Origin: Bacteroidales bacterium
GTDB lineage: Bacteria > Bacteroidota > Bacteroidia > Bacteroidales > VadinHA17
DNA length: 49,117 nt
NCBI GenBank assembly: GCA_030596125.1
Contig: JAUVKT010000008.1
Coordinates: 1 to 49,117, forward strand
Direction: 5' to 3'
Shown here: piece by piece, positions 226 through 11,876 of the stretch
Layout: the number at the start of each line of letters is the position of its first letter
Numbering within the stretch: the stretch's first letter is position 1
Program-made: the position numbers and the translations under genes
Notes under the pieces: generated by a model
Database searches by the model: none
Seen by the model: the letters and a program-made list of their open reading frames with translations, nothing else
Told to the model about the DNA's origin: nothing

Positions 226-2070
226 ATGCGCAATAGTGACAATGTTATTGAAAGGGAAGAAATGGTAATCAGGTTTTCCGGTGATTCCGGTGACGGAATG
301 CAGCTTACCGGAACGCTTTTTTCAAATACATCAGCTTTGTTTGGGAATGATATTTCTACATTTCCTGATTATCCGGCCGAGATCCGTGCTCCGCAGGGAA
401 CAGTAGGTGGTATTTCGGGATTTCAGGTTCATGTTGGTCACTCGGAGATATTTACTCCCGGTGATCTTGCTGATGTACTTGTTGCTATGAACCCGGCTGC
501 TATTAAAGCTAACTCAAAATTAATAAGACAGGGTGGAACAATTATTATTGACGAGGATAATTTTACCGAAAAGAACATTACAAAAGCCGGATATACTTCA
601 GACCCTGTCAAGGAGGATAAACTTGAAGATTATAATATAATTGCTGCTCCAATTTCAACTCTTGTAAAGGAAGCTCTTAAAGATTTTGGACTCGATCCCA
701 AGACAGTAATGCGAACAAAAAACATGTTTGCTCTTGGGATAGTTTACTGGTTGTTCGACAGGGAACTCAAATATACCCGGTCATTTATTGAGAAAAAATT
801 CAGTTTACGTCCCGAGATTATCAGGGCAAATATGGAAGTGCTCAATGCAGGGTATAATTATGGTGAGACCATTGAAGCTTTAACACCCACCTATAGGGTT
901 AGTCCTGCCAAAATAGATAAGGGAACTTACCGGAATATCAACGGAAATACATCCACCGCCTGGGGTCTGCTTGCTGCAGCAGAAAAGGCTAACCTTGAGC
1001 TTTTTATCGGTTCCTATCCGATTACTCCCGCTACAGGAATCCTTGAGGAACTTGCTGCCAGGAAAGACCTTGGCGTTAAGAGTTTTCAGGCAGAGGATGA
1101 GATAGCCGGTATCTGTACAGCGATTGGCGCCAGCTTTGCCGGGAGACTGGCTGTTACGACTACTTCGGGTCCCGGGCTTGCTCTTAAAGCTGAGGCACTG
1201 GGATTGGCTGTCATGACTGAACTTCCACTTGTAGTTATTAATGTACAGAGGGGTGGCCCTTCTACCGGACTCCCAACTAAAACAGAACAGTCTGACCTGA
1301 TGCAGGCACTTTATGGCAGGAACGGGGAGAGCCCGGTAGTGGTGATTGCTGCCAGCACCCCCTCCAACTGTTTCAAATTTGCCTTTGAGGCTGCAAGAAT
1401 AGCTGTGGAGCATATGGTGCCGGTTATACTTCTTACTGACGGTTTTCTGGCAAACGGAACAGAACCATGGAGGATTCCTTCCATGGCTGATCTGCCCGAT
1501 ATTAATCCTCCCCTTGCTATTGAAGGAGATACAGATTATATTCCGTATAAAAGAGATGAAAAACTGCTAAACCGCAAATGGGCAATACCGGGAACCAGAG
1601 GGTTTGAACACAGGATAGGCGGACTCGAAAAAACAATAAATGGAACCGTATCGTATGTTCCTGAGAACCATGAATATATGGTAAAGATCAGAGCTGAAAA
1701 AGTGGCAAGGGTGGTTACAAAAGTTCCTGATATGAAGGTCTATGGTGCCGGTGAGGGGGATATTCTCGTTATTGGCTGGGGAGGTACTTACGGTCACCTG
1801 CTTACTGCAGTAAGAGAGATTATTGATGACGGTCTTATAGAGGTGGGTTTTGCTCATTTTAATTATATCAACCCGTTACCATCCAATACAGCAAAAGTTT
1901 TTAGTTGTTTTAAAATGCTTCTGGTTGCAGAACTCAATTCCGGGCAGTTTGTAAACTACCTCAGGATGAACTTCCAGGAGTTCAACTTCCAGCAAATAAA
2001 TAAGGTGCAGGGATTACCTTTTACTGTTGCAGAAATCAAGGATAAATGTTATAAAATAGTGGAGATTTAG
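226..2070 (+). CDS. korA: 2-oxoacid (2-oxoglutarate):ferredoxin oxidoreductase, fused gamma-alpha subunit
   Basis: Complete ORF with ATG; N-terminal gamma domain (FSGDSGDGMQLTG), alpha pyrimidine-binding region (GSYPITPATGILEELA, QAEDEIAG, TTTSGPGLALKAEALGLA); followed immediately by the beta subunit. Confidence 0.93.
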   Translation: MRNSDNVIEREEMVIRFSGDSGDGMQLTGTLFSNTSALFGNDISTFPDYPAEIRAPQGTVGGISGFQVHVGHSEIFTPGDLADVLVAMNPAAIKANSKLIRQGGTIIIDEDNFTEKNITKAGYTSDPVKEDKLEDYNIIAAPISTLVKEALKDFGLDPKTVMRTKNMFALGIVYWLFDRELKYTRSFIEKKFSLRPEIIRANMEVLNAGYNYGETIEALTPTYRVSPAKIDKGTYRNINGNTSTAWGLLAAAEKANLELFIGSYPITPATGILEELAARKDLGVKSFQAEDEIAGICTAIGASFAGRLAVTTTSGPGLALKAEALGLAVMTELPLVVINVQRGGPSTGLPTKTEQSDLMQALYGRNGESPVVVIAASTPSNCFKFAFEAARIAVEHMVPVILLTDGFLANGTEPWRIPSMADLPDINPPLAIEGDTDYIPYKRDEKLLNRKWAIPGTRGFEHRIGGLEKTINGTVSYVPENHEYMVKIRAEKVARVVTKVPDMKVYGAGEGDILVIGWGGTYGHLLTAVREIIDDGLIEVGFAHFNYINPLPSNTAKVFSCFKMLLVAELNSGQFVNYLRMNFQEFNFQQINKVQGLPFTVAEIKDKCYKIVEI

Positions 2071-2072
2071 TT

Positions 2073-3089
2073 ATGGTAGAAATAGAAACGCTTCATAGTC
2101 CAAAAGATTTTAAAAGTGATCAGGAGGTCAGGTGGTGCCCGGGTTGTGGTGACCATGCAATACTTAGCTCTATAATGAGAGCCCTTTCAGCATTGAATAT
2201 CCCGAAAGAGAAATTCGCATTTATCTCAGGGATAGGATGTTCATCCCGCTTCCCTTACTATATCGATACTTACGGTTTTCACAGTATTCACGGACGTGCA
2301 GCAGCTATTGCTTCCGGTGTTAAGGTGGCAAATCCTGACCTGAGTGTATGGGAGATAACTGGTGACGGTGATGCTTTGGCTATTGGAGGAAATCATTTTA
2401 TTCACGCAGTAAGAAGAAATATTGATATTAATATAATCCTTTTTAATAATGAAATTTACGGCCTCACAAAGGGCCAGTATTCTCCAACATCCGCAAAAGG
2501 TTTGGTAACTAAAACTTCACCTTATGGTACAATTGAGGAACCTTTTCAGCCGGGAGAACTCGTTGTTGGTGCAAAGGGCAAATTTTTTGCAAGGACACTG
2601 GATTCCAATATTAAGTTATCTACGGAGATCTACATGGAAGCTGCCAGGCATGACGGAACTTCTGTTGTTGAGGTGCTTCAGAATTGTATTATTTTTAATG
2701 ATGGAATTCATGCTGCAATAAGTGACAAAGCTCACCGTGATGACCGTACAATAATTCTTCGCCAGGGTGAACCTATGATGTTTGGAAAGAACAGCGATAA
2801 GGGGCTTGTGCTTGACGGATTAAAACTTAAGGTAGTTAAACTGGCTAACGGTATTTCTGAAAAAGATTTACTGGTTCATGATGCCGAGGAGAATAATCCG
2901 GGAATGCATACTATGCTTGCCAATATGAGATATCCCGGATTCCCGGTGGCTCTTGGTGTTATCAGAGCAGTAAGTGCTCCTACTTACGATATGGCTGTAT
3001 CAGGGCAAATAGCCAAGGTGAAGAAGAGTTCTGAGATAAAGTGCGTTGATGATCTTCTGCGCAGTGGCTCTACGTGGGAGGCAAAATAA
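2073..3089 (+). CDS. korB: 2-oxoacid (2-oxoglutarate):ferredoxin oxidoreductase, beta subunit
   Basis: WCPGCGDHAIL, GIGCSSRFPYY, HGRAAAIASG, GDGDALAIGGNH (TPP binding); 2 bp downstream of korA. Confidence 0.93.
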   Translation: MVEIETLHSPKDFKSDQEVRWCPGCGDHAILSSIMRALSALNIPKEKFAFISGIGCSSRFPYYIDTYGFHSIHGRAAAIASGVKVANPDLSVWEITGDGDALAIGGNHFIHAVRRNIDINIILFNNEIYGLTKGQYSPTSAKGLVTKTSPYGTIEEPFQPGELVVGAKGKFFARTLDSNIKLSTEIYMEAARHDGTSVVEVLQNCIIFNDGIHAAISDKAHRDDRTIILRQGEPMMFGKNSDKGLVLDGLKLKVVKLANGISEKDLLVHDAEENNPGMHTMLANMRYPGFPVALGVIRAVSAPTYDMAVSGQIAKVKKSSEIKCVDDLLRSGSTWEAK

Positions 3090-3674: not shown

Positions 3675-6600
3675 ATGAGTGAAACTAAGAAAAAAGAGGG
3701 TAGGCTTGAACGATTGCTGCATGATCAACAGGAGAGATTAAAAGAGCTGGCCTGTATTAACCGGACTACGGTAATACTTAAGGAGAGTAAAACCATTGAG
3801 GAGTCGTTACAGAAAATTGTTCTGTCGCTGCCTATAGCATGCCAGTACCCCGATTATACTACTGCCAGGATAAAGTATAATGATAAAATTTTTATGACCA
3901 GTGACTTTGAGGAGACCAAATGGGTTCTGAAGCAGGAGTTTATAACAATTAATAATAAGACAGGGTCTATAGAGATATTTTATACACGTGAATTTAAACC
4001 GGAGGATGAGGGTCCCTTTCTTACAGAGGAGAGAGATCTCATTGTTAACCTGTCGAGTCTTATTACAGGTTCGATCAACAGCCACCTGGCAAAAGAATTT
4101 ATCAAGGTTCCTGAAGTTACAGTACAAGATGAAGATGATAAAGGTAAAAGTTCCAGTCGTAAATTATTACAGAAATTCCTCGATAGACATAATGCCGAGC
4201 GAGATGCTTTTCACGACCTGATGCCCTTTAAAGTAAAGGAGATACTGTTGGTTGCAAATTTGTATGATGCTTATTCTATTGAGGGTGAAGGCCGGTTTAC
4301 AGACCATATCCTCGGTGAATACCACCAGTTGAACCTATCGAATGTGCCCAGGGTAACAGGAGTGTCAGGCGAAGATGAAGTCATCCGAAAACTTAAAGCC
4401 AGGCATTATGATATGATAATCATAATGATTGGTGTTGACAAAGAGAACCCGGTTCGCCTTTGTGAAAAGGTAAAACAAAAATATCCCTATATTCCTACTT
4501 TTCTTCTTCTTAATAGTCCGTCAGATCTTCCATTTATTATGCGTAAGAGAGAGAAAGGACTCACTTTCGACGGGTATTTTGTCTGGACAGGTGAGTCGAA
4601 GGTGTTTTTTGCCATGGTTAAGATGCTGGAAGACAGGGTAAATGCAGAAAATGATACTCAGATCGGACTTACCCGGATAATATTGCTTGTTGAAGATTCT
4701 GCTGAATATTATTCAAGCTATCTGCCAATGCTCTATACACTTGTAATGGAGCAGACAAAAAGCATGATTGAAGATGTAAGTTCTGATGAACTCTACAAGA
4801 TACTTAAGATGAGAGCTCGACCCAAGATATTGCTTGCAACAACTTATGAGGAGGCTATAAGTATATACAGACAGTATAAGGATTACCTGTTGTGTGTAAT
4901 ATCAGATATGAGATTTTCAAAGGATGGTCAGTTGAATGAGAAGGCTGGTTTCGACCTTATACAATATGTTAAAAGTGAACTGCCCAATATTCCAACTGTT
5001 CTTCAATCATCAGACCCCGGAAACTCCAAATATGCACATGCCCTGAAGTCGAGTTTTATCAATAAAAATTCGGAAAGCCTGCTTCAGGATCTGAAATCAT
5101 TTATCAATTACTACCTTGGGTTCGGACATTTTGTTTACCGCGATGATCAGGGGAGACAGATAGCAGTGGCCAAGTCTATGAAGGAGTTCGAACAATATCT
5201 TAAAACAATACCTGAAAACAGCCTTGCGTACCATGCCATGAAGAATCATTTTTCATTGTGGCTTACTGCGAGGGGAGAGGTTAATATTGCAAAGATAATT
5301 ACTCCCATGCGAATTAGTGATTTCACGAACCTGTCTGAACTCAGAAATTTTCTCCTGCAACTGATAAAAAAGAGACGCCATGAAATGGATAAGGGTAAGG
5401 TGATTAATTTTGATGAATCGGCAGCAATAGACGAGACAAATGTGGTTAGTCTTGCAGGAGGATCACTCGGCGGTAAAGGAAGAGGACTGGCTTTTGTTAA
5501 TACTTTAATATATAGTTTTGGGGTAGGTAAGTTAATCCCTGGAATAAATATCAAATCGCCGGTTACCATGATTATCGGAACTGATGAGTTTGATATGTTT
5601 ATCGAGAGTAATAAGTTAAGGAATAAAATTACAGAGGAGAAAGATTACGAAGTATTAAAGGTTGAGTTTTTAAGGGGAAATTTGTCATACACATTGGAAA
5701 AGAAATTAAAATCTTTCCTGAAGTTAATGGATAAGCCGATTGCCATCAGATCATCGAGCCTCTTCGAAGATTCTATCAATCAGCCTTTCTCAGGAATATT
5801 TGGCACATACCTGCTGCCAAATAATCAACCCGGTTTTGAGATAAGGATGAAGCTTGTCACGGATGCAATAAAGCTCGTTTTTGCATCAATATTCTCTAAA
5901 AGTGCACGTACCTACTTTGAAGCAATAAATTATAAAATTGAGCAGGAGAAGATGGCCATAGTATTACAGGAGGTGGTAGGGAACAGGTATGAAGATACAT
6001 TTTATCCACATATAAGTGGTACGGCCCAATCATACAACTTCTATCCCGTTGCTCATATGAAACCTGAAGAGGGTTTTGCTGTTTCGGCAGTTGGCCTGGG
6101 ACAATATGTTGTAGAGGGTGAAAGCGCATACCGGTTTTCACCTGTTTATCCGACCCTTGATATAGTTTCTCAGAAAGATATTTCAAAGAACTCTCAGGTA
6201 AGTTTCTATGCTGTTGATATGAACAAGGATCATATTAACCTGCTTGATGGAGAGAATGCCGGACTTGTAAGGCTTGATATCTCCGATTCGGAGCGACACG
6301 GCACACTCAGGCATTGTGCTTCTGTCTATAATCCCAATAATGATTCTATAGTACCCGGATTAGACAGCTATGGCCCCAGGGTTGTGAACTTCGCAAATAT
6401 TCTGAAATATGATTATATCCCGCTGGCCTCTGCTTTAAGTACTATACTTGATGTTGTTAAGGAGGCTTTTGGAACACCGGTTGAGATAGAGTATGCCGTA
6501 GATCTTACAAAGGATTCGAATGGAATGACCAGTTTCTACCTGTTGCAGGTTAAACCTCTTGTCGGGAGTGGTGCCGGATATAATATAAGAACATCATCTA

Positions 6601-7124
6601 TTAACAGAGATAAGTGCTTACTGATTACAACCAGGAGTATGGGTAATGGTAAGATTGATGACATTCATGATGTTGTATATCTCGATCCTGGTATGTTCGA
6701 CAATACAAAAACAGAGGAGATGGCCAGAGAGATAGAGGCTGTGAATGATGAGATGCTGAAGCAGGGAAGAAAATATATTCTTATTGGTCCTGGTCGCTGG
6801 GGAACACGTGATAAATATATAGGTGTCCCGGTTGTATGGCCTCAAATATCACAGGCTAAGGTTATTGTAGAGGTTAGCCTGCCTGATTTTCCTCTTGATG
6901 CATCACTTGGCTCACATTTTTTTCATAATGTCATCTCTATGAATGTAGGATATTTCTCAATAGACCATACATCACCTGATGAACTTATTGACTGGGAGAG
7001 ATTATCCGGACAAAAGGTTGTAAAGAGAGGTAAATATTTTAATCATATCTCTTTCGATAAAAACCTTACCATCAGGATGGATGGCAAGAAACGAATGGCT
7101 GTTATTGAATGTGCGGAATGTTAA
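3675..7124 (+). CDS. PEP/pyruvate-binding (PPDK_N ATP-grasp) protein with N-terminal GAF-like region and two receiver-like domains
   Basis: LLVEDS...VISDMRF...FINKN receiver motifs; GGSLGGKGRGLAFVN, IAIRSSSLFEDSINQPFSGIFGTYLLPN, EIEYAVDL...FYLLQVKPLV typical of the PPDK N-terminal nucleotide-binding domain; unassigned C-terminal region with GPGRWGTRDKYIG. Confidence 0.8.
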   Translation: MSETKKKEGRLERLLHDQQERLKELACINRTTVILKESKTIEESLQKIVLSLPIACQYPDYTTARIKYNDKIFMTSDFEETKWVLKQEFITINNKTGSIEIFYTREFKPEDEGPFLTEERDLIVNLSSLITGSINSHLAKEFIKVPEVTVQDEDDKGKSSSRKLLQKFLDRHNAERDAFHDLMPFKVKEILLVANLYDAYSIEGEGRFTDHILGEYHQLNLSNVPRVTGVSGEDEVIRKLKARHYDMIIIMIGVDKENPVRLCEKVKQKYPYIPTFLLLNSPSDLPFIMRKREKGLTFDGYFVWTGESKVFFAMVKMLEDRVNAENDTQIGLTRIILLVEDSAEYYSSYLPMLYTLVMEQTKSMIEDVSSDELYKILKMRARPKILLATTYEEAISIYRQYKDYLLCVISDMRFSKDGQLNEKAGFDLIQYVKSELPNIPTVLQSSDPGNSKYAHALKSSFINKNSESLLQDLKSFINYYLGFGHFVYRDDQGRQIAVAKSMKEFEQYLKTIPENSLAYHAMKNHFSLWLTARGEVNIAKIITPMRISDFTNLSELRNFLLQLIKKRRHEMDKGKVINFDESAAIDETNVVSLAGGSLGGKGRGLAFVNTLIYSFGVGKLIPGINIKSPVTMIIGTDEFDMFIESNKLRNKITEEKDYEVLKVEFLRGNLSYTLEKKLKSFLKLMDKPIAIRSSSLFEDSINQPFSGIFGTYLLPNNQPGFEIRMKLVTDAIKLVFASIFSKSARTYFEAINYKIEQEKMAIVLQEVVGNRYEDTFYPHISGTAQSYNFYPVAHMKPEEGFAVSAVGLGQYVVEGESAYRFSPVYPTLDIVSQKDISKNSQVSFYAVDMNKDHINLLDGENAGLVRLDISDSERHGTLRHCASVYNPNNDSIVPGLDSYGPRVVNFANILKYDYIPLASALSTILDVVKEAFGTPVEIEYAVDLTKDSNGMTSFYLLQVKPLVGSGAGYNIRTSSINRDKCLLITTRSMGNGKIDDIHDVVYLDPGMFDNTKTEEMAREIEAVNDEMLKQGRKYILIGPGRWGTRDKYIGVPVVWPQISQAKVIVEVSLPDFPLDASLGSHFFHNVISMNVGYFSIDHTSPDELIDWERLSGQKVVKRGKYFNHISFDKNLTIRMDGKKRMAVIECAEC

Positions 7125-7134
7125 ACTGTAAATT

Positions 7135-10119
7135 ATGGCTCTGATAGATGGAATAATGGAACTTCAGAAGTATGACTTTAGTGATACTTCGTTTAATCTT
7201 CTGATGCAGAGGCGTATTCATAAAGTGTTGCTGATTTGCAGCAACTATGATAACTATATGCTTGAAGAGGATGGCCGGATAGATGAACAGATCTTCAACG
7301 AGTATGTTTCTCTGAACCTAAGGTATCCTCCCATTTTTGTTCAGGCAGATAGCCAGGAAGAGGCTTTGAAAATTCTTGATACTGAAAAGATAGACCTTGT
7401 TATAGAAATGTTCAATCTCAGGGGAGTCAATATGTTTGATCTTGCAAAGCAGATCAAGGAAAAGTATCATGGAATACCGGTTGTTGCCCTTACATACTTC
7501 TCCAGAGAAACATCTCTGGTAATTGAAAAGGCGGATATGAGTGCAATAGATTATGTCTTCTCCTGGCTTGGTGATGCAAGCCTGTTGCTGGCAATAATTA
7601 AACTGCTCGAAGATCGTTTGAATGCTGAATATGATGTTGAAGTTGTTGGTGTACAAACAATTATACTTGTTGAGGACTCGATAAGATACATTTCATCATA
7701 TCTGCCTAACCTTTATAAGATTATCCTGAAGCAATCGAGAGATTTTCAACAGGAGGCTCTTAACCCTCACCAGAAGACCCTTAGAATGAGAGGCAGGCCC
7801 AAAATACTTCTTGCTACAAATTTCGAGGAAGCACTCTCACTTTATAAGAAATATAAGCATAATGTCCTGGGTGTCATTTCAGATATCAGGTATGAGCGTA
7901 ACGGAGAACTTGACCCCAAAGCCGGAATAGAGTTGTGCCGGATAATTCAGGAAGATGACAAAAATATGCCATTGTTGTTGCAATCTTCCAATATCGAGAT
8001 GAAAGATCTTGCCGATAAAATGGGGTTAGGGTTTATTAATAAATACTCCAAGAGTCTCTCGATAGAACTTAGAAACTTTATTATTCAGAATCTTGCTTTT
8101 GGTCCGTTTGTTTTTCGTGATCACAAAACAAAAGAGGCGATTGGAGTTGCAACCGACCTTCAGAATTTCCAGCAAAAACTGCTTACCCTCCCGGTAGAGA
8201 GCCTTGTTTACCATGCTGAAAGGGATCATTTCTCTAAATGGCTGAATGCCAGGGCTTTGTTTCCGGTTGCCCAGATGTTTAAGTATATCCAGAAGGAAGA
8301 CTTCGATTCCATTGAAGAGATGAGGAGGTTTATATATGTTGCCATATCGAGCTTCAGGCTTGGGAAGGGCAGGGGAGTGATTGCCAAATTTGACAGAACC
8401 ACTTTTGATGAATATCAGATATTCAGCCGGATAGGAGATGGTTCTATTGGAGGGAAGGCACGCGGACTGGCATTTATAAACTCGATAATCAAGAGATACA
8501 GCCTTTTCAATAAGTTCGATGATGTACTTATTACAATCCCGCGGACAGTTGTATTGAGCACTGATGTTTTCGATGAGTTCATGGAACGTAATAATTTGTA
8601 CGAAATAGGGTTGAGTGATCAGCCTGATGCAAAAATTCTTGAAAAGTTTGTTGAATCTGAATTGCCCGGATGGGTATACCAGGATTTGTATGCTTACCTC
8701 TCGGTATCAAGCCAGTATCCAATCGCTGTACGTTCTTCGAGTAAGCTTGAAGATTCACATTATCAACCTTTTGCCGGGATATATTCTACATATATGATTC
8801 CGAGGATATCTGATAACAGGTTGATGGTAAAGATGATATCTGATGCAATTAAGGAGGTTTATGCTTCGGTTTACTATAAGAGCAGTAAGGCATACATGAC
8901 TGCTACAGCAAATGTTATCGATGAAGAGAAGATGGGCATCGTTCTGCAGGAAGTGTGCGGAAACATACATGGTGATATATATTACCCGACCCTGTCAGGG
9001 GTTGCCAGGTCAATTAATTTTTATCCGATCGGATCAGAAAAGGCTGAGGATGGGATCGTAAATATAGCAATGGGACTTGGTAAGTTAATTGTGGAGGGTG
9101 GCAGGTCACTCAGGTTTTCACCTAAACATCCAAAGAAGATCTTACAGCTTTCTTCTCCTGAAACTTCTCTGCGTGAGACTCAAAAGGAGTTCTATGCCCT
9201 CGACTTAAACATTGATAGTTTCGTTCCGAGTGTTGATGACGGGGTTAATATCCTTAAAAAACGAATTTCTGAAGCAGAGAGTAATAGTACTCTTAAGGTA
9301 GCGGCTTCGACTTACGACTTGCAGAGCAATATTATCAGGCCGGGTATAACACACCCTGGTAAGAGAGTTATTACTTTTGATAATGTTTTAAAGCATAATA
9401 TTTTTCCGCTTGCTTCTATTTTGAAGGAACTTCTTGATCTTGGGCAGAGAGAGATGGGTAATCCTATCGAGATTGAATTTGCTGCAAATCTGGAGACAAA
9501 AAAGGGAATTCCGATGATCTTTAATTTCCTACAGATCAGACCTATTGTAGATAATGACCAGTCACAGATAATTGACATCGAATCTGTTAAGGAGAAGCAA
9601 ACAATTATTACCTCATGTTCGGCACTCGGTAATGGCCTTGTTAAAGGAATTAAGGATATTATCTATGTGAAACCCGAATCATTTAAGCCGGCAAATAATG
9701 AAAAGATAGTGGAGATCCTGGAAAATCTGAATAGCACATTTATTAATGACTGCAAGTATTATGTGTTGGTTGGCCCTGGCAGATGGGGCTCTACAGATAA
9801 ATGGCTTGGAATACCAATTAAATGGCCACAGATATCTCAGGCCAGGATTATTGTGGAATCAGGTCTGCCGAAATACCGCATAGATCCGAGCCAGGGAACA
9901 CACTTCTTCCAGAATATTACATCATTCAGAATTGGTTATTTTACTATCAATCCATTTATAAATGATGGATCGTATGATGTTGAATATCTGAACAGCCTGG
10001 AACCAGTTTACCAGGATGACTTTATCCGTCATATAAGGTTTGATTGTCCACTAAAAATAATGATTGATGGCAGGATTCATAAAGGTGTGATACTGAAGCC
10101 TGAAGTGGCGAATGAATAG
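7135..10119 (+). CDS. PEP/pyruvate-binding (PPDK_N ATP-grasp) protein with two receiver-like domains; paralog of the upstream ORF
   Basis: Collinear similarity to 3675-7124 (GDGSIGGKARGLAFIN, IAVRSSSKLEDSHYQPFAGIYSTYMIP, EIEFAANL...NFLQIRPIV, GPGRWGSTDKWLGIPIKWPQISQARIIVE, GTHFFQN); 10-bp gap from upstream ORF. Confidence 0.8.
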   Translation: MALIDGIMELQKYDFSDTSFNLLMQRRIHKVLLICSNYDNYMLEEDGRIDEQIFNEYVSLNLRYPPIFVQADSQEEALKILDTEKIDLVIEMFNLRGVNMFDLAKQIKEKYHGIPVVALTYFSRETSLVIEKADMSAIDYVFSWLGDASLLLAIIKLLEDRLNAEYDVEVVGVQTIILVEDSIRYISSYLPNLYKIILKQSRDFQQEALNPHQKTLRMRGRPKILLATNFEEALSLYKKYKHNVLGVISDIRYERNGELDPKAGIELCRIIQEDDKNMPLLLQSSNIEMKDLADKMGLGFINKYSKSLSIELRNFIIQNLAFGPFVFRDHKTKEAIGVATDLQNFQQKLLTLPVESLVYHAERDHFSKWLNARALFPVAQMFKYIQKEDFDSIEEMRRFIYVAISSFRLGKGRGVIAKFDRTTFDEYQIFSRIGDGSIGGKARGLAFINSIIKRYSLFNKFDDVLITIPRTVVLSTDVFDEFMERNNLYEIGLSDQPDAKILEKFVESELPGWVYQDLYAYLSVSSQYPIAVRSSSKLEDSHYQPFAGIYSTYMIPRISDNRLMVKMISDAIKEVYASVYYKSSKAYMTATANVIDEEKMGIVLQEVCGNIHGDIYYPTLSGVARSINFYPIGSEKAEDGIVNIAMGLGKLIVEGGRSLRFSPKHPKKILQLSSPETSLRETQKEFYALDLNIDSFVPSVDDGVNILKKRISEAESNSTLKVAASTYDLQSNIIRPGITHPGKRVITFDNVLKHNIFPLASILKELLDLGQREMGNPIEIEFAANLETKKGIPMIFNFLQIRPIVDNDQSQIIDIESVKEKQTIITSCSALGNGLVKGIKDIIYVKPESFKPANNEKIVEILENLNSTFINDCKYYVLVGPGRWGSTDKWLGIPIKWPQISQARIIVESGLPKYRIDPSQGTHFFQNITSFRIGYFTINPFINDGSYDVEYLNSLEPVYQDDFIRHIRFDCPLKIMIDGRIHKGVILKPEVANE

Positions 10120-10235: not shown

Positions 10236-11876
10236 TTAACTCTTCAGTACCTTAAGAGCTTCTTCATTTTTAGCATCTGTCATAAATGCAAGGCCGGTTA
10301 CTTCTTCTGTTTCCCTATTAGCAGCAACCAGGTCATCCCGGGATAATTCATCTATCTTAAACTTACGGGCACCTGCCATAAATTGTTGAAGGCCACCGGC
10401 CAGTTTATCTATATAAGCATACATGGCAATAGCACCGAACGGGATATTTTTCATTTCATCCTTTCCGACCTTTTCCTGTACCGGTTCCCATCCTGCAAAA
10501 ATCTGTTCAGGTTCCTTCCCGAACTCTTTGACTGCAGGAGGAAGTGATTCCCAGTGACCATAAAGTTCAGCTCTCTTTCTCGGTTTGAACACACCTTCAA
10601 TGTTGCTCCCCAGGAACCCGGGAATCATCGGAGCCCTACCCATGCAGACCATTTTGGAATATGGAGCTCCAAGGGCAATGGCTTTAAATATATGATCTTC
10701 TCGTGCAAATCCTCCGGCAAAGGAGATATCCGGAACTTTTATACCCCGATCATCAAGAATCCTACAGTATTCATATGCTTTTGAATGCAATGCCAACGAA
10801 GGAATGCCCCAATGCTGCATCATGTTCCAGGGGCTCATTCCAGTTCCCCCACCCGATCCGTCAATGGTTAACAGATCAAGTTCCGCATCAGCAGAAAACC
10901 GGATGGCCATTGCCAGTGCTTCCATATCATAAGCACCTGTCTTCAGTGTAATCCGGCTAAATCCCAGTTTTCTTAAGTGAGCCACATCATTCATAAAAGA
11001 TTCCCTAACTTCCTCAGGAGAGGATAAGTCAGTGCCACCGAGTCGGCTGTGCCTTGCAAATGAACTGATTGCCTTGGCATTAAAAGCTGATTCTACAATA
11101 GGACTATAGGGATCCGGATCGACCAGGTAGGCGCGATCTTTCAGGAATTTTGCAAATTCGATGCTGCTCACTTGTATCTCACCGCCAATGTTCTTGGCGC
11201 CCTGCCCCCACTTCAGTTCCATGATCACCTTGTTACCATACTTATTCATAATATATTCTGCTACACCATTCCTTGTATCTTCCACATTCATTTGCACAAT
11301 TATGGCACCATAACCATCGAAATATCTGAAGAATGTTTCAATCCGGCGATCCAGCTCAGGGGCTTTTTCAATTTTTCCTTTCTTTATGATTGAAAGTTTA
11401 TCCACTCCAACCACATTTTCTCCAACAACTATTGGGATGCCACTCAGAGCTGCTCCCACGGCAAACGACTCCCAGTAATTTCTCGCTACAAAAGTAGATC
11501 CAAGTGCGCCGGTCATGACCGGAATCCGACATTTAATTTTCTCCTTATTTCCAAGTTCAGTCGTAATATCTGCGTTGGTAAACAGACAATCATCTGCATT
11601 CCTGGTCAATGGAGGTTCAATGCCTTTCGCACCGTAAGCGTAACCCTGAATTCTTATGGAATGGTAACCTACGCCCATTGTTGAAATGTGCGATGATCCT
11701 GATGTCGTTCGCCCAAAATTCCTGGGATAGAGAAGTTTTCTTCCCTTGAGGGAGGAAAGCCATGTTTCACATTTTCCTTTGCAGGCTGAATCACAAAGGG
11801 TACAGAGACCCGACTCACAAGGAACGCCCCGGTTCACAGTTCCGATTGCATCATTATTTTTAAACCATTGTATCAT
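10236..11876 (-). CDS. Standalone FMN-binding glutamate synthase family protein (GltB central/synthase domain) with N-terminal Cys-rich segment
   Basis: ELKWGQGAKNIGGEI, LLTIDGSGGGTGMSPWNMMQHWGIPS, FAGGFAREDHIFKAIALGAPYSKMVCMGRAPM. Confidence 0.85.
   Translation of the reverse strand: MIQWFKNNDAIGTVNRGVPCESGLCTLCDSACKGKCETWLSSLKGRKLLYPRNFGRTTSGSSHISTMGVGYHSIRIQGYAYGAKGIEPPLTRNADDCLFTNADITTELGNKEKIKCRIPVMTGALGSTFVARNYWESFAVGAALSGIPIVVGENVVGVDKLSIIKKGKIEKAPELDRRIETFFRYFDGYGAIIVQMNVEDTRNGVAEYIMNKYGNKVIMELKWGQGAKNIGGEIQVSSIEFAKFLKDRAYLVDPDPYSPIVESAFNAKAISSFARHSRLGGTDLSSPEEVRESFMNDVAHLRKLGFSRITLKTGAYDMEALAMAIRFSADAELDLLTIDGSGGGTGMSPWNMMQHWGIPSLALHSKAYEYCRILDDRGIKVPDISFAGGFAREDHIFKAIALGAPYSKMVCMGRAPMIPGFLGSNIEGVFKPRKRAELYGHWESLPPAVKEFGKEPEQIFAGWEPVQEKVGKDEMKNIPFGAIAMYAYIDKLAGGLQQFMAGARKFKIDELSRDDLVAANRETEEVTGLAFMTDAKNEEALKVLKS

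Follow-up and report, generated by a model that had tools for sequence, protein, structure and literature searches.

The closest described relatives of the two proteins analyzed here, P1 and P2, are enzymes built around an ATP-grasp domain. PEP synthase and PPDK combine PF01326 with PF00391 and a PEP barrel, and have the PPDK_N ATP-grasp domain and its catalytic residues in common with P1 and P2. The two proteins differ from these enzymes in the lack of the swivelling His domain and the PEP barrel, a different C-terminal domain, receivers in front, and a gene context of glutamate dehydrogenase (GDH). Rifampin phosphotransferase (5hv3) shows a likeness in the ATP-grasp domain, but P1 and P2 carry neither a RIF-binding nor a His domain and similarity across the whole protein is weak. 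The ligases PigC (prodigiosin) and RedH (undecylprodigiosin) give weak NCBIfam matches, which cover the ATP-grasp only and fall far below the family cut-offs. Control of the GlnE/GlnD type is similar in outline, as there too an enzyme of ammonia assimilation is governed by a protein dedicated to it, and one subfamily of the proteins discussed here (subfamily C) carries NTP_transf_2. Unlike GlnE/GlnD, P1 and P2 encode no nucleotidyltransferase, are built on a PPDK-type ATP-grasp core and have GDH as their proposed target. Searches of the literature found no characterized homologue with this architecture, and no description of the architecture, of DUF5752 or of a link to GDH. The P1/P2 family is undescribed, and its ATP-grasp part belongs to a known family.

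The window, the whole stretch of 49,117 nucleotides from a Bacteroidales bacterium, encodes P1 (3675-7124, 1149 aa) and P2 (7135-10119, 994 aa) in tandem on the plus strand with a spacing of 10 bp. Both are complete and genuine open reading frames. Their identity of 37% across 982 aligned residues supports the claim of tandem paralogues made in an earlier, sequence-only reading of the locus. P2 consists of a degenerate receiver, an intact receiver, a DUF5752-like linker, the PPDK_N ATP-grasp and the C-terminal domain. P1 has the same order preceded by a GAF-like N-terminus. The earlier reading overlooked the helical linker (Pfam DUF5752 match at P1 residues 499-573), the GAF-like N-terminus of P1 and the conserved C-terminal domain. 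An AlphaFold2 model of P2 based on 60 homologues (pLDDT 88.1) contains two receiver folds and the ATP-grasp. A role in anti-phage defence was considered and dropped, as PADLOC models gave no match to the family. The 585-bp gap before P1 (3090-3674) is AT-rich and contains short repeated motifs (gtcggcagtc..., actgtggactgccgactg).

The PPDK_N ATP-grasp spans 5463-6563 in P1 and 8443-9567 in P2, both on the plus strand, with Pfam E-values of 2e-36 and 2.4e-34. The proposed PPDK/PEP-synthase nucleotide-binding domain is thus present in both frames, and the ATP-grasp motifs quoted for it are strongly conserved among 60 homologues. GGK, R533, S534-S535, E539, E781 and Q800 show little or no variation in this set, and K441 is likewise among the catalytic residues retained in homologues across phyla. 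The residues align with the catalytic residues of genuine PEP synthase. P2 keeps K441, R533, E781, Q800 and R802, and P1 has a Lys in place of the catalytic Arg of LQxRP (R802 position). Foldseek identified rifampin phosphotransferase of Listeria (5hv3) as the top match of the P2 ATP-grasp and also recovered PPDK.

The ATP-grasp had been described as an orphan, which does not hold because a conserved C-terminal domain accompanies it as part of the core. This domain of ~180 residues follows PPDK_N in every family member and is located at 6582-7115 in P1 and 9568-10104 in P2 (plus strand). In P2, it carries the pattern GxGRWGSxD..LG...SxG(T/S)HFF, with little or no variation among the 60 homologues at G880, R883, G885, G892, E908, H923, F924 and F925. 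H923 (9901-9903) is invariant in all 60 sequences and corresponds to the invariant His1081 of P1 (6915-6917). The GRWGS...G(T/S)HFF motif is kept in remote subfamilies too. Matches of a C-terminal-domain profile in the genomes searched fall in long open frames, and those long frames inspected also carry the ATP-grasp RSS motif.

The N-terminal halves suggest a signal input. P2 opens with a receiver-like domain (7216-7569, plus strand), which adopts a receiver fold in the model and by alignment lacks the acidic pair and the phospho-acceptor Asp. The second receiver (7651-8094, plus strand) contains Glu180-Asp181, Asp250 (7882-7884), Ser284 and Lys303, all conserved in 60 homologues from many phyla. 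E180, D250 and K303 do not vary among them and D181 and S284 hardly do, so that receiver 2 is predicted to be phosphorylatable. In P1, the second receiver lies at 4662-5144 (plus strand) with the putative phospho-acceptor Asp411 at 4905-4907. Pfam Response_reg matches P2 at 8.4e-12 and P1 weakly (0.0039), and Foldseek matched the P2 N-terminus to PleD and other receivers. The fusion of response-regulator-like modules to the ATP-grasp is therefore real and comprises two receiver folds, but only receiver 2 retains the residues for phosphorylation. P1 additionally starts with a sensor-type domain (approximately 3732-4094, plus strand) recognized by sequence comparison. It has no Pfam match, so we infer the GAF label. 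A domain of this type is also found at the N-terminus of subfamily C. P1 versions of 1550 aa (L039:9439-14112 and L043:3714-8363) carry additional GAF-like repeats resembling the N-terminal domain of P1, and the repeat has no Pfam family. An interpretation of this N-terminal extension as a GDH fusion was rejected, as it consists of these repeated domains.

A single core of ATP-grasp and C-terminal domain occurs in four architectures. Type A combines receivers, DUF5752 and the core as in P1 and P2, type B is the bare core (about 580 aa), type C joins a GAF-like domain, the core and a nucleotidyltransferase (about 1060 aa), and type D (757-895 aa) has no receivers. Type A was found in 102 of 118 genomes of the order Bacteroidales, and beyond the order in FCB bacteria, Acidobacteriota, Gemmatimonadota, Desulfobacterales and others. 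The member in Parabacteroides distasonis has the RefSeq name 'PEP/pyruvate-binding domain-containing protein' and gdhA as its divergent neighbour. Subfamily C (L044:4507-7689, L239, L242, L256), with its GAF-like domain and PPDK_N core, lies in an operon with GDH. The L044 member ends in an NTP_transf_2 domain with a GS...DxD motif. Members of subfamily C are often near a calcineurin-like phosphoesterase gene, and the two could possibly form a pair for nucleotidylylation and its removal.

The best lead to the function of the family is its genomic neighbourhood. GDH is the immediate neighbour in 44 of 80 homologous loci, which were fetched from genome contigs by sequence alone without considering GDH. 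By our own estimate, which assumes about 2 GDH genes per 3000, chance would produce ~0.1 such cases in 80, and adjacency far exceeds this across subfamilies. The phyla involved include Bacteroidota, Ignavibacteriota, Acidobacteriota, Gemmatimonadota, Zixiibacteriota, Desulfobacterales and others. The distance is usually 15-400 bp, and GDH may be upstream, downstream, convergent or divergent. Among 60 further Bacteroidales loci, GDH adjoins the P gene in 23, and the next most common neighbour family, korA/korB, in 5. Subfamilies B and C form operons with a second GDH type, either in the order GDH, B, C (L239, L044, L047, L242) or as GDH-C pairs (L256-L258). The receiver-free type D has GDH adjacent in 8 of 11 loci. 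About half of the loci have no adjacent GDH and many of these are cut by contig ends. In two Bacteroidales families, most sampled members have no GDH within 1.5 kb. Adjacency is underestimated because genomes are often fragmented. Instead of GDH, the surroundings of P2 at L107 and L108 contain a gene resembling cytidylate kinase and a pair of paralogous genes of 620 aa.

Signalling genes and genes of ammonia assimilation recur at these loci. GDH, the P gene, a histidine kinase and an NtrC regulator form a row at L248-L250, and a PAS kinase and a NarL-type regulator adjoin the P gene at L072, L073 and L078. At these loci, the input that the receivers give P1 and P2 is present as separate genes. 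One locus (L244:1-7453) has the order gltB, gltD, a gene with a KaiC-like start and PPDK_N core, and glnA, which connects type D with GS-GOGAT. P1 and P2 themselves have no adjacent GDH gene in the window. Their neighbours there, conserved in relatives of the window, are korA (226-2070, plus strand) and korB (2073-3089, plus strand), encoding the alpha and beta subunits of a 2-oxoacid:acceptor oxidoreductase. Beside P2 lies a gene for an FMN-binding glutamate-synthase-like protein (10236-11876, minus strand), of which a homologue (L063:9037-10659) matches Glu_synthase. Homologues of this gene are also found beside family members at L063, L124, L129, L248 and L252, including Ignavibacteria and Desulfobacterales. 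Together, the korAB and glutamate-synthase-like neighbours represent the 2-oxoglutarate/glutamate node. The focus of the sequence-only reading on pyruvate/PEP chemistry is not supported, because the gene context directs attention to GDH and the assimilation of ammonia.

The two paralogues appear to be linked to distinct GDH isozymes. P1-linked GDHs are mostly 446-469 aa in length and P2-linked GDHs mostly 444-447 aa. In a quick GDH tree with many open forks, the P1- and P2-linked GDHs separate with 2 label changes, against single-group means of 12.9 and 18.2 after shuffling. The two changes among P1/P2 rows stem from L039, with a single GDH flanked by P1 and P2, and from a Delongbacteria locus. 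Exceptions to the pairing are L039 and L113/L239. The genome of the window encodes two GDHs on another contig, one in each tree group. On this basis, we predict that P2 pairs with the GDH at L167:4766-6100 and P1 with the one at L167:7464-8921.

We suggest that P1 and P2 are signal-gated, ATP-dependent accessory proteins that control or activate GDH, each dedicated to one isozyme, and assign this reading a probability of about 0.6. Such a dedicated role is probable because these genes sit beside GDH across many phyla. A more specific version is that the phosphorylation-gated PPDK-family ATP-grasp, together with the invariant His of the new domain, modifies GDH covalently and reversibly, with one modifier per isozyme in many phyla; we put this forward tentatively, as somewhat less than an even chance. 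The proposed steps draw on established knowledge of receivers and ATP-grasp enzymes. A histidine kinase would phosphorylate the Asp of receiver 2, which would open or close the ATP-grasp and thereby free it. The core would then split ATP, and the C-terminal domain, perhaps via His923, would pass a group to GDH or alter its conformation. GDH thus modified or loaded would be switched in activity. Two-component signalling, together with the ATP state, would in this way determine the flux through ammonia, 2-oxoglutarate and glutamate post-translationally.

Alternatively, the proteins might be metabolic enzymes whose ATP-grasp phosphorylates or ligates a small molecule from the node of glutamate, 2-oxoglutarate and ammonia, with GDH simply belonging to the same pathway. 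The retained catalytic residues would be expected of such an enzyme, and small molecules are the substrates of related proteins such as the PigC/RedH ligases and rifampin phosphotransferase. The occurrence of korAB and of genes for glutamate synthase and glutamine synthetase as neighbours, besides GDH, would also be explained. However, the presence of one paralogue per GDH isozyme looks regulatory, as do the fusions to receivers, GAF-like domains and nucleotidyltransferases. The proteins also have no additional substrate domain comparable to the RIF or PEP domains. We consider a purely metabolic role unlikely.

The proteins might also act on GDH without any catalysis. The ATP-grasp and receiver would then sense ATP/AMP and phosphorylation, and the protein would associate with GDH, either as an allosteric subunit or to assist assembly, with no group transfer. 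Gene linkage to GDH is compatible with such a partner, as is the wording 'activity affected in trans' in the title of an earlier report on Bacteroides GDH discussed below. The Lys of P1 at the R802 position points in the same direction. Yet the (near-)invariance over phyla of K441, R533, E539, E781, Q800 and the C-terminal His goes beyond what nucleotide sensing needs, which makes a non-catalytic role improbable.

A cryptic PEP synthase or PPDK, in which a swivelling His domain has diverged into the C-terminal domain and passes phosphate to pyruvate or another acceptor, is very improbable. To the eye, the domain resembles the swivel in the succession of its strands and helices and in having an invariant His where a helix begins. 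However, hhalign of the domain against two PEP-utilizers alignments gave Prob 0.2 and 0.6 (positive control 100), and neither Pfam nor a PDB profile search recovered a relative. The isolated domain is modelled with confidence (AlphaFold pLDDT 92.5), and no PDB entry scored below E=0.04 in Foldseek, whose 50 listed matches include no PPDK-type chain. We therefore rejected GTHFF as a disguised TSHAA swivel. The C-terminal domain is new and undescribed. For P1 and P2 as a whole, Pfam matches to PEP-utilizers (PF00391) and to the PEP-barrel family were absent at E<=1, and the secondary structure of the P2 model includes no barrel. The model thus reveals neither a cryptic His-swivel nor a PEP barrel. 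As the sequence-only reading proposed, both parts are missing, so that neither protein is a complete PEP synthase or PPDK. The genome moreover has its own PPDK. Of its three PPDK_N genes, P1 and P2 are joined by a separate 910-aa gene, which also carries PEP-utilizers and is an ordinary intact PPDK. Finally, P genes and GDH could be no more than old neighbours, consistent with much conserved gene order within the window's family, but we discount this since adjacency survives changes of order and orientation across phyla, subfamilies A to D and two GDH types.

The proposed GDH control may relate to an early observation in Bacteroides. According to its title (reference list of PMC4539542), Baggio and Morrison (1996) reported that GDH activity of Bacteroides thetaiotaomicron is affected in trans by gene(s) downstream of gdhA. 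No identification of this factor was found in the literature. Reportedly, gdhA showed activity in E. coli only when a downstream segment of 3 kb was provided as well. A trans-acting segment of ~3 kb is the size of a P gene. At L294, malic enzyme, gdh and a convergent 3-kb P gene follow each other, which places the P gene just downstream of gdh. The encoded protein is closest among those sampled to the P protein of Phocaeicola massiliensis (80%). In B. thetaiotaomicron, BT1969 is malic enzyme (PMC8865466) and BT1971 is catalase; a search of locus numbers around BT1969-BT1973 did not reveal the P homologue. These observations are suggestive, and the P family may be the trans-acting factor of 1996.

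If true, control of GDH by P1 and P2 would represent a new kind of post-translational control in central nitrogen metabolism. In gut Bacteroidales and many anaerobes, GDH is one of the main routes by which ammonia enters biomass. A near-universal Bacteroidales protein annotated as 'PEP/pyruvate-binding' (102 of 118 genomes) would become a candidate GDH controller, and the PPDK ATP-grasp superfamily would gain a new role and a new domain. The 1996 report of trans-acting genes for Bacteroides GDH activity would thereby become directly testable.
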